Positions 35,376-38,059 of a stretch of 40,732 nt of DNA are shown in pieces (position 1 is the stretch's first letter; each line of letters begins with the position of its first letter). The DNA lies in assembly GCA_025965175.1 (NCBI GenBank), contig JAOPXL010000063.1:1-40732 (forward strand), in the 5' to 3' direction. Position numbers and translations under genes: made by a program. The notes beneath the pieces are model-generated. The model did no database searches. It was given only the letters and a program-made list of their open reading frames with translations, and had not been told where the DNA came from. Source of the stretch: Aeromicrobium sp. GTDB taxonomy: Bacteria > Actinomycetota > Actinomycetes > Propionibacteriales > Nocardioidaceae.

Positions 35376-36194
35376 TCAGGCGTCGCGACGGACGAACAGG
35401 ACGTACGAGATCGCGAGCAGCGCCGCGACGAAGACTGCCATGACGATGCCACCGCCGAGCGGTCCGAACGGCGTGTAGCCGAGGAACGACAGCAGGTCAT
35501 CCAGGGAGGCGCGGGTGTAGAGCTTGCCGCCGGCGTCGTACGGCAGGAATTTGAGGATCTGGATGAATCCGCCGTCCTCCCCCGGCTCGTCCGAGGCACC
35601 CTTGATGGCGATGACGATGGCCCGGATGATCGACTCCAGGACGGAGGGGACCAGCAGGAGCAGCGCCACGGCGGCGGTCTGGTTGCGGGTGATCGCGGCG
35701 AACGCGAGGCCCGACAGGGCGAACAGCACCGTGAAGACGATGGTCCCGAGACCCAGGTCGACCAGCGCCTTCGCGGTCGGCAGGTCGAGCCCGAACCCCA
35801 CGATGCTGAGCAGCGCGACCAGGATGCACACCAGCGCCGCCAGCGCTGACACCACGGTCGTCGCGACGATCTTGGCCGCGAGCACGTAGGTGCGGTGCGG
35901 GATCGCCGTGAGCGTCGCGCGGATCATGCCGTGGCGGTACTCGTGGCCCATCGAGAGCACCCCGAAGAGCCCGATGATGTACGCGATGAACAGTGGCGCG
36001 AACCCGCTCGACGCCCCGATCGTCGCGATGATCTCGAAGGCGCTGTCGCCCCCGCTGAACGTGTCGGAGGACGAGATCGACGCGGCCAGCACGATCGACA
36101 TGACAAGCTGGAACGCGACGGCCGAGCCGATCAGCCAGTACGTCGAGCGGATCGTGCGGAGGCGCAGGTACTCGTAGCGGAGCGCGTCGATCAT
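35376..36194 (-). CDS. ABC-2 type transporter permease
   Basis: A 272-residue membrane protein with about six segments, first after the cytosolic [20 protein letters not shown] start, a common opening of ABC-2 permeases. The [19 protein letters not shown] coupling-helix motif is diagnostic. It pairs with the ATP-binding protein encoded just upstream (ATGA overlap). Probably exports a lipid, peptide or drug; substrate unknown. Confidence 0.9.
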
Positions 36195-37102
36195 GCCTCG
36201 CCACCTCCGCGGAACTCCTCGGCGAGCCCCGTCGCCTCGAGGAACGCCTCCTCCAGCGTCGCCTGTCTCGTGACGAGCTGGTGCAGCCGGGCGCCGACGG
36301 CGTGCGCCTCGTCGCCGATCTGCTCGGCGGTCAGGCCGCGGGCCACGAGGACGCCCCCCTCGCTCGTCAGCTCGGCACCCAGCGCCGTCAGCCGGGGCGC
36401 GAGCACCGCGGCGTCGGGGCTGCGGACCTCGACCGCCCCGAGGCTGCTGCGGGAGATGAACTCCGACACCGCGCCGTTGGCCAGCATGCGGCCCCGCCCG
36501 ATCACGACGAGCTGGTCGGCCAGCACCGCCATCTCCTGCAGCAGGTGGCTCGAGACGAACACCGCACGGCCCTCGCCGGCGAGGTGCTTGAGCAGGTCGC
36601 GCAGCCAGTGGATGCCCTGCGGGTCGAGGCCGTTGCTGGGCTCGTCCAGGATCAGGGTGTGCGGGTTGCCCAGCAGCGCCGCCGCGAGGCCCAGCCGTTG
36701 CCCCATGCCGAGGCTGAACTTGCCGGGCTTGCCCTTCGCGACGCTGCCGAGGCCGACCAGGTCCATGACCTCGTCGACCCGGCCGTCCGGGATCCGGTTC
36801 GACGCCGCGAGCATCCGCAGGTGGTCGCGGGCGTGCCGGGTCGGATGGAACGGCTTGGCCTCCAGCAGTGCGCCGACGTGCCGCATGGGGTGCTCGAGCT
36901 CGCCGAACCGCCGCCCGTCGAAGGTCGTCGAACCGTCACCGTTGTCGAGCCCCAGCATGAGCCGCATCGTCGTGGACTTGCCGGAGCCGTTGGGTCCGAG
37001 GAACCCGGTCACGCTGCCCGGCCGCACGACGAACGACAGGTCGTCGACCGCGCGCTTGGCCCCGTACGTCTTGCCGAGTCCCCGCGCCTCGATGAGAGCC
37101 AT
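36191..37102 (-). CDS. ABC transporter ATP-binding protein
   Basis: A 303-residue nucleotide-binding protein. Walker [10 protein letters not shown] at 36-44, Q-loop near ALLEAKPF, signature [12 protein letters not shown], Walker [16 protein letters not shown] and the H-loop SSHLL are all intact. The 70-residue tail is typical of ABC-2 exporters of the DrrA/CcmA kind. Start at 37102 (MALIEARG) has CAGGCT six bases upstream, so it is probably leaderless; GTG at 37108 is less likely. Divergent from the tryptophan dioxygenase leader across 40 bases. Confidence 0.93.
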
Positions 37103-37108
37103 GTGCAC

Positions 37109-37136
37109 AGCCTGTCACGCGGAGAGGGCCTACGGT
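37109..37136. promoter_or_regulatory. Divergent promoter elements of the ABC exporter and the dioxygenase leader
   Basis: CAGGCT on the minus strand (37109-37114) lies six bases from the ATP-binding protein ATG at 37102. TACGGT on the plus strand (37131-37136) lies six bases from the ATG of the leader ORF at 37143. Both fit leaderless transcription. -35 elements are weak or absent. Confidence 0.5.
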
Positions 37137-37142
37137 GGCGAC

Positions 37143-37217
37143 ATGAGCGAGCGAAACGACGGCAACTCATGTCGCCGCCTCCGTACGGTGCCCTTCCTGA
37201 CGGAGGCGGCGACATGA
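37143..37217 (+). CDS. Leader peptide of tryptophan 2,3-dioxygenase (24 codons)
   Basis: An ORF of 24 codons (starting MSERNDG, containing Arg-Arg-Leu-Arg and Pro17, ending EAAT). Its ATG is six bases after the -10 TACGGT, consistent with leaderless translation, and its TGA overlaps the ATG of the dioxygenase (ATGA). Its second half runs through the 18-bp inverted repeat that occludes the dioxygenase ribosome site, so ribosomes translating it would open that hairpin. It has no Trp codon, so it is not a classical Trp attenuator. Whether the peptide itself matters is unknown. Confidence 0.55.
37167..37217 (+). promoter_or_regulatory. Perfect inverted repeat occluding the dioxygenase start
   Basis: Arms TCATGTCGCCGCCTCCGT (37167-37184) and ACGGAGGCGGCGACATGA (37200-37217) are perfect 18-bp complements with a 15-nt loop. 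The right arm holds the Shine-Dalgarno (GGAGG) and the ATG at 37214 of the dioxygenase. In RNA this hairpin would strongly block independent initiation. The left arm also carries an in-frame ATG at 37169 that lacks a ribosome site. Confidence 0.9.
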
Positions 37218-38059
37218 CTGAGAGCAGCGAGTCCTACCGGCCGATCGAGGAGGGCGTCGCGAGGGACCTGCGGGGCGAGATGACGTACGCGAGCTATCTT
37301 CAGCTGCCGACCCTGCTGTCGGCCCAGCAGCCCGTGTCGGAGCACCACGACGAGATGCTGTTCATCGTCCAGCACCAGGTCACCGAGCTGTGGCTCAAGC
37401 AGCTGATCCACGAGCTGCGGTCCGCGATGAGCCTGATCGCGGCCGACGACCTCTCCCCGGCACTCAAGCGGCTGGCGCGGGTCAAGGCGATCCAGCGGCA
37501 GATGTTCGAGCAGTGGTCGGTGCTCGAGACGCTGACGCCGGTCGAGTACGTCCAGTTCCGCGACTTCCTCGGCAGGGCGTCGGGATTCCAGTCCCCGCAG
37601 TACCGGACGGTGGAGTTCCTGCTCGGCAACAAGAACCCGCAGATGATCTCGGTCTTCGACCACGATCCCGTGCTGCACGACGCGCTGGTCGCAGACCTCG
37701 AGGCACCCAGCCTGTACGACGAGTTCCTCCGCTACCTCGCCCGGCGGGGGCACGACGTCCCGGCGGCGGTGCTCGAGCGGGACGTCTCGCAGCCGTACAC
37801 CGCTGACCCCGGCGTCACCGAGGTGCTGCGACGGATCTACGCCGATCCCGCGACGCACTGGGACGCGTATGAGATGTGCGAGGAGCTCGTCGACGTCGAG
37901 GAGAGCTTCCAGCTGTGGCGGTTCCGCCACCTCAAGACCGTCGAGCGGATCATCGGCTTCAAGCGAGGGACCGGAGGCTCCTCCGGAGTCCACTTCCTCC
38001 AGAAGGCCCTGGAGCTGACCTTCTTCCCAGAACTACTGACGGTGCGAACTCTTCTCTGA
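37214..38059 (+). CDS. kynA: Tryptophan 2,3-dioxygenase
   Basis: A 281-residue heme enzyme that opens the indole ring of L-tryptophan with O2 to give N-formylkynurenine, the first step of kynurenine catabolism. H54 in IVQHQ is the distal active-site histidine, R121 and the Y130-R131 pair lie in [15 protein letters not shown]239 in RFRHLKT is the proximal heme ligand, and GTGGSSG (252-258) is the substrate-carboxylate loop. Length is normal. The start is fixed by GGAGG nine bases upstream and by N-terminal homology ([17 protein letters not shown]). No kynureninase or formamidase is nearby. A hairpin follows the stop. Confidence 0.95.

Follow-up and report, generated by a model that had tools for sequence, protein, structure and literature searches.

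A MIRU-like dispersed repeat with a small open reading frame and a covarying hairpin at start codons of Aeromicrobium genes

The mycobacterial interspersed repetitive units (MIRUs), reportedly described by Supply et al. in 1997, are known mainly as typing markers of Mycobacterium tuberculosis, and their role is still debated. Elements of the REP/RAYT and IS200/IS605 types are also short and dispersed, with hairpins and tetranucleotide-specific sites, while coupled leader open reading frames (ORFs) that sense antibiotics or amino acids overlap the start of their target, whose Shine-Dalgarno sequence (SD) lies in a hairpin. According to the excerpts consulted, MIRUs measure 40–100 bp and occupy 41 places in strain H37Rv, with a rnc-fpg1 gap of repeat length only in the tuberculosis complex (PMC2734929), appear to be mobile, integrating at start codons in such a way as to couple the target to an inner ORF at −4 spacing (PMC12548453), and can drive regX3 without senX3 (PMC4213456).

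Here we describe an element which works like a MIRU by its layout and which was found in front of kynA in a window of Aeromicrobium DNA (the whole stretch analysed, 40,732 nucleotides). As in MIRUs, the repeat is short and occurs both dispersed and in tandem (here units of 71–84 bp; tandem periods of 80, 83 and 84 bp), is inserted at start codons (RTGA; here with empty and filled pairs at kynA and hemA), holds an inner ORF with overlapping stop and start codons (by layout, in 21 of the 23 copies of the window's own genome) and varies in copy number; for MIRUs, promoter activity is reported at senX3-regX3 in the excerpts of PMC4213456. It differs in lying outside Mycobacterium and in carrying a covarying hairpin over the SD and start codon with a TANNNT box in its loop, such a hairpin not being mentioned for MIRUs in the sections of text consulted. 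A published MIRU probe matched 0 of 297 genomes, and the likeness to MIRUs therefore rests on layout. With REP/RAYT and IS200/IS605 elements it shares small size, dispersal, a hairpin and a tetranucleotide-specific site, but it is found only at the RTGA of genes, with its ORF in frame. It also resembles coupled sensing leaders, since its small ORF overlaps the target start and the SD lies in a hairpin, but it is repeated before unrelated genes, with an unconserved peptide and no sensor codons. In the open-access literature searched, the left-end sequence strings occurred in no paper and none on such repeats in Aeromicrobium was found; in PMC4633059, neither TANNNT nor MIRU was found as a term. 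A MIRU-like family outside Mycobacterium that offers empty sites, a covarying hairpin, a candidate promoter and, in some species, many copies per genome makes it possible to ask in harmless environmental strains if these repeats are neutral passengers or serve as portable expression modules. It must also be considered that leaders like that of kynA should not be taken for gene-specific sensors.

The kynA copy and its recurrence in the genus

The features of the locus are the following, in coordinates of the window:

37131–37136, + strand: TACGGT (TANNNT), native-type −10 box, from the sequence; 6 nt to the small-ORF ATG at 37143
37143–37217, + strand: the element, a small ORF (24 codons) bounded by ATGA at both ends; covariance-model match, E 4.0e-14; empty site in G036
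37143–37159, + strand: conserved left end, ATGAGCGAGCGAAACGA; from the alignment of 55 elements
37167–37184, + strand: hairpin 5' arm, reverse complement of the SD and start-codon region of the next gene; inverted repeat, covariation
37184–37189, + strand: loop box TACGGT (TANNNT), candidate internal −10 with putative promoter activity
37200–37217, + strand: hairpin 3' arm, holding the SD and the start codon; inverted repeat, covariation
37202–37206, + strand: GGAGG, the kynA SD, inside the 3' arm and 7 nt from the kynA ATG; from the sequence
37214–37217, + strand: ATGA, overlap of the small-ORF stop and the kynA start; from the sequence
37214–38059, + strand: kynA, tryptophan 2,3-dioxygenase, 281 aa; Pfam PF03301 (Trp_dioxygenase), E 1.9e-68

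The insert unit comprises 71 bp (37143–37213) plus the shared ATGA, and the kynA start at 37214 is consistent with the starts in relatives. An earlier note made from the letters of this stretch had described most of this anatomy correctly: TACGGT stands 6 nt before the ATG at 37143, in the geometry of a leaderless-type start, the 24-codon ORF overlaps the kynA start through its final ATGA, and a perfect inverted repeat of 18 bp (15 nt between the arms) buries the kynA SD and start codon. This arrangement is found again in 64 distinct elements of the genus. Its observation that none of the 24 codons of the leader encodes Trp also holds. The leader folds at −42.9 kcal/mol against a shuffle mean of −28.95 kcal/mol (z −4.2; 0 of 200 shuffles as good), and a scan of positions 36900–37400 against Rfam 15 gave no covariance-model match up to E 1. 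A gene for an ABC transporter ATPase (Pfam ABC_tran; 36191–37108, − strand) is divergent from kynA, with its start about 35 nt from the element ATG.

Judged by sequence comparison, the leader at kynA is one copy of a short dispersed repeat and apparently not a gene-private leader. Searching the genome with it revealed a second place on another contig (C14; E 1.9e-7), where two tandem copies precede hemA with ATGA overlaps on both sides of each, behind an ORF which we take to be rex. The third place lies before a response-regulator gene (Pfam Response_reg and Trans_reg_C), presumably mtrA by name. From relatives, 71 elements (64 distinct) were collected by requiring an R-TGA start, an ORF of 20–32 codons and an RTGA end; 55 of the 64 entered the alignment and the covariance model, 9 tandem near-copies being excluded. 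At E 0.01 the model had matches in at least 45 of the 49 genomes of the genus, with no element among the matches listed for G028, G029, G043 and G048. Matches per genome at this threshold were at least 24 in the window's own genome, at least 3 in its closest relative (G036) and at most, in G016, at least 81. In the own genome, at least 23 matches reached E 2e-8 or better, two of which (L376 and L379) may be one locus counted twice in this assembly of 241 contigs. These two loci (L376 on G000:C236, L379 on C132) hold near-identical MerR-type genes with different element copies, as from a strain mixture or an assembly duplication. In a sample of 130 genomes of the family, 32 matched at E 1e-6, comprising 26 of Aeromicrobium and 6 of other genera.

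The unit is usually 80 or 83 bp long (71 bp at kynA; range 71–84 bp). Motif counts alone separated poorly from background: when one mismatch was allowed, TGAGCGAGCGNNNCGA was matched 28 times in the own genome and the reversed control 23 times, and without mismatch 4 vs. 2, while exact matches in 39 of the 49 genus genomes were in many cases only at background level. Given that motif matches were so close to the control, single hits were not considered as evidence, and the alignments and the covariance model were used.

The genes behind the copies have little in common. Twenty of 21 downstream proteins scanned (the gene behind L379 was left out) had Pfam matches, to different families with no common theme, including GlutR, NADHdh, ArgJ, TsaD, DHBP_synthase, GH65, CNNM, MerR, GNAT, Lactamase_B, a permease and Trp_dioxygenase; the protein downstream of L372 had no Pfam match. 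The copies thus appear to form no regulon. The earlier idea of a leader peptide private to kynA, or of a kynA sensor, does not fit an element that also precedes hemA, argJ, tsaD, ribBA, a nuoH-like gene and others.

Insertion at RTGA start codons

The kynA gene was found in 25 of the 49 genus genomes and its start was read in 24 (that of G034 is unread). Eighteen of these starts have TANNNT 6–7 nt before the ATG, four lack it there and two carry the element. From these layouts (18 of 24), kynA is probably mostly leaderless in the genus, and on the same basis TACGGT at 37131–37136 is, by all appearance, the −10 box of the native leaderless kynA promoter, now serving the small-ORF ATG. In the closest relative, G036, which belongs to these 18 and is 95% identical to the window in kynA over the first 93 residues (up to a contig edge) and 98% in hemA, there is no element and TACCGT is followed directly by 7 nt and the ATG. 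Absence of the stem in close relatives had been named beforehand as refuting the proposed leader, and this relative does have kynA without any leader. Among the 24 loci read, only the window's genome and G037 have the element at kynA (22 do not), and in both the native box sits 6 nt before the element ATG; by this arrangement, the element has evidently taken over the native leaderless start. Given that G037 is distant (80% at hemA) and that its kynA element differs from that of the window, the two insertions are most simply regarded as independent.

The 49 genomes yielded 30 hemA loci, of which 8 are filled and 22 empty (G020 contains an N stretch). When the empty locus of G024 is compared with the filled one of G016, the left flank is identical up to the RTGA and the two differ by the insert. 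Such pairs establish precise insertion at kynA and hemA, as far as can be read from the DNA. On the hemA protein tree (n = 30), 7 changes between filled and empty are required, 6 of them forced by well-supported branches, and the filled label shows no more clustering than shuffled labels do (a value as low in 307 of 500). In two further genomes, additional to the 30 loci (G012 and G026), an element match abuts the hemA match by coordinates.

The insertion site is an RTGA start codon, often a stop/start overlap within an operon. In 47 of 55 first copies the left TGA is at the same time the stop codon of an ORF upstream (counted from 100 codons, or from 60 if the frame stays open up to the edge), vs. 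98 of 655 other RTGA sites of the same loci; kynA is among the 8 first copies for which this does not hold. The right end of the element seems to be tied to the target: its start base equals that of the left end in 66 of 72 first copies, vs. 65% on permutation (0 of 3000), and the flanks beside the left and right ends match above permutation. Before genes with a GTG start, TCAC or TCGC frequently replaces TCAT in the 5' arm. At L058, L072, L373, L115 and other loci, the left flank before the RTGA is identical to the right end of the element over 10 nt or more. A long target duplication was considered on account of a subset with flank/right-end matches of 8–10 nt, but some left flanks resemble remnants of older copies and therefore a long duplication is not claimed.

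The small ORF, the hairpin and the loop box

The 64 elements had been chosen by an ORF rule and, therefore, their frame keeping is no evidence; instead, the own copies found by the model, a choice blind to frame, were used. In 21 of these 23 copies the ORF reaches the right RTGA exactly, the frame being broken in L371 and L381; L378 begins with ACGA, which is no start codon. Tandem periods in the genus were 83 bp (13 cases), 80 bp (10) and 84 bp (2), so the frame is kept in 23 of 25 and broken in the 84-bp arrays. In one of the latter (G016:C12:126660-126843, L096), the ORF continues through the following units. These comparisons establish that the length of the ORF is kept and the peptide is not. 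The same DNA is read as ...SCRRLRTV... at kynA and as ...MPASSYRG... at hemA, and across 58 elements the loop box falls in frame 0 in 37, in frame 2 in 17 and in frame 1 in 4. The fact that the ORF is kept while the same DNA is read in three frames speaks for selection that would act on the open frame and on the DNA or RNA, not on a peptide or a regulatory codon. No conserved peptide appeared when conserved leader codons were sought, as the earlier note had recommended, and the nascent-peptide or Arg/Cys-codon sensing considered there has no conserved substrate, given that, across copies, each of the three frames is used in the middle of the element. Sensing of Trp, Arg or Cys by the kynA leader is thus very unlikely.

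The covariation of the stem which that note had also recommended looking for was found across the element copies. In the alignment of 55 rows, 89.4% of the cells of 17 pairs are standard pairs, and 13 of the 17 pairs have changed on both sides. Cells with both-side changes numbered 129, vs. 41.5 (sd 4.6) in shuffles, and the covariation score was 0.465 vs. 0.179, with 0 of 500 shuffles as high in either case; arms slid along the alignment were 35–51% paired. When the arms of 58 elements were anchored independently of pairing, 85.4% was paired, compared with 69.8% in overall permutations and 80.7% in permutations within genomes (0 of 2000 as high in each). By an ungapped stem rule, a stem of 13 bp or more with a loop of 8 nt or more is present in 58 of 64 elements, the other 6 having a stem below 13 bp or a loop below 8 nt, and an SD-like motif was recognisable in 58 of 64 and not in 6. 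The fold energies of the two hemA copies and the response-regulator copy were not beyond shuffles (z −0.6, 0.0 and −1.8). Only the kynA copy of the four is exceptional in energy and, therefore, the support for the hairpin comes from covariation. It must be noted that G-U cells numbered 74 and A-C cells 19 (89.7 and 38.6 in shuffles), composition explaining much of the excess of the former over the latter, so that correction at the DNA level between the palindrome arms could also give covariation.

The TANNNT box occurs in 58 of the 64 elements, once in each, 32–36 nt from the right end and nowhere else. Of the 55 rows, 53 have its first T, 53 its A and 54 its final T, the three inner bases being more variable, and the motif is present in 50 of 55 real cores vs. 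36% of composition-shuffled cores. Among the own copies, 18 of 23 have the loop box and 5 do not. If transcription is assumed to start 7 nt after the box, the leader would be 16–20 nt long (18 nt in the kynA copy), with the SD and without the 5' arm. The predicted accessibility of the SD is 0.42 in this box transcript vs. 0.11 in the full transcript, and higher in 56 of 58 elements; for the kynA copy it is 0.26 vs. 0.0001. A transcript whose 5' part is shuffled reaches 0.34, and compared with such an unstructured leader little would be gained.

Readings of the element and repeats in other genera

In our judgement, the element is probably a MIRU-like repeat that inserts at RTGA and carries a small ORF, an SD and a hairpin covering the SD and start codon, with coupled translation. 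Each copy brings a small ORF running from the old RTGA to a new one that is the start of the target gene, together with an SD for this target and a 5' arm that can pair with this SD and the start codon. Ribosomes on the small ORF of a read-through or leaderless transcript would open the hairpin and start anew at the overlapping ATGA; through this coupling, the target would stay expressed after insertion, its translation then depending on the small ORF. As regards the coupling proposed in the earlier note, the geometry is there (a −4 ATGA overlap and the hairpin over SD and start), and the coupling itself we infer. Less certainly, the loop TANNNT could act as a promoter whose transcripts start past the 5' arm, leaving the SD exposed without coupling. 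Coupling would be the likeliest mode and the internal promoter the second.

The emphasis could also be reversed. It is tentatively conceivable that the element is mainly a portable promoter and ribosome site, its loop TANNNT driving a short transcript while the hairpin and the small ORF only silence or pass read-through ribosomes. The fixed place of the box in 58 of 64 elements, the keeping of T, A and T while the inner bases vary and the higher accessibility of the SD in 56 of 58 are in favour of this, as are, in the excerpts consulted, the TANNNT −10 motif at 73% of primary starts of M. tuberculosis (PMC3898074) and the driving of regX3 alone reported for MIRUs between senX3 and regX3 (PMC4213456); but the box could persist merely because the repeat around it is conserved, it is missing from 5 of 23 own copies, and a shuffled 5' part already gives most of the accessibility. 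Moreover, it is missing at this place in 40 of 40 R-bounded tandem units of other genera among the matches listed (39 have no TANNNT and 1 has it elsewhere). A combined version strikes us as somewhat doubtful, namely a two-mode mobile start-codon cassette in which the hairpin would close the target SD unless the small ORF is translated, the loop-promoter transcript, lacking the 5' arm, would be open, and the right end and 5' arm would be matched to the ATG or GTG of the target. Such matching to the gene entered would mean that target sequence is copied into both arms in the course of mobility.

The agreement of the left and right start bases (66 of 72), the matching flanks and the poor separation of DNA from RNA pairing by the G-U and A-C counts are also what would be expected if the hairpin served DNA mobility or replication, as a transposition signal or through template-switch correction of the arms, with an incidental effect on RNA. 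We regard this as unlikely, since mobility requires neither an arm that always covers the SD and start codon nor an ORF that stays in frame, as both are seen here, and the genus genomes hold no Y1/REP-type transposase. It is highly improbable that this is a leader peptide specific to kynA, regulating the gene by sensing an amino acid or a nascent chain: the leader does look translated, its hairpin perfectly covers the SD and a leader of this kind precedes kynA in a second species, G037, but the same element precedes unrelated genes, is absent from kynA in the closest relative and in 22 of 24 loci, has no Trp codon and is read in three frames in its middle. Hardly any credit can be given to an intrinsic terminator or transcription attenuator; the hairpin is strong and GC-rich, but it ends on the start codon of the gene and no T run follows it, on which grounds a terminator was rejected from the sequence. 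A Y1 transposase as mobiliser, and with it a REP/RAYT identity, was ruled out by the absence of PF01797 from all 49 genus genomes in a search that did find it in 5 of 14 control genomes.

A scan of several genera covered at least 120 stretches and at least 80 loci. Among the matches listed, 90 tandem units included 43 bounded by R, 35 of which keep the frame to the TGA, and 46 bounded by TTGA or CTGA, of which 14 do. A strong stem was present in 3 of 3 R-bounded units of Aeromicrobium and in 6 of 40 of other genera among these matches, so the long hairpin is not general. The loci L165, L178, L197 and L229 (Micromonospora, Catellatospora) have R-bounded tandem units of like layout, with stems of 11–13 bp over a GGCGGCRTGA-type end and no loop box. 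A different repeat, with the same core GAGCGAGCG.AGCGAG but bounded by TTGA or CTGA (often ..CGGTCGTTGAGCGAGCG..GACGAAACG), was seen in Microbacterium and others, at L160, L169, L175, L183, L187, L222, L237 and further loci, mostly not keeping the frame. The exact left-end motif was present in no listed genome of the genus inferred as Mycobacterium (g31), but a 66-bp R-bounded repeat in tandem does occur in one Mycobacterium MAG.
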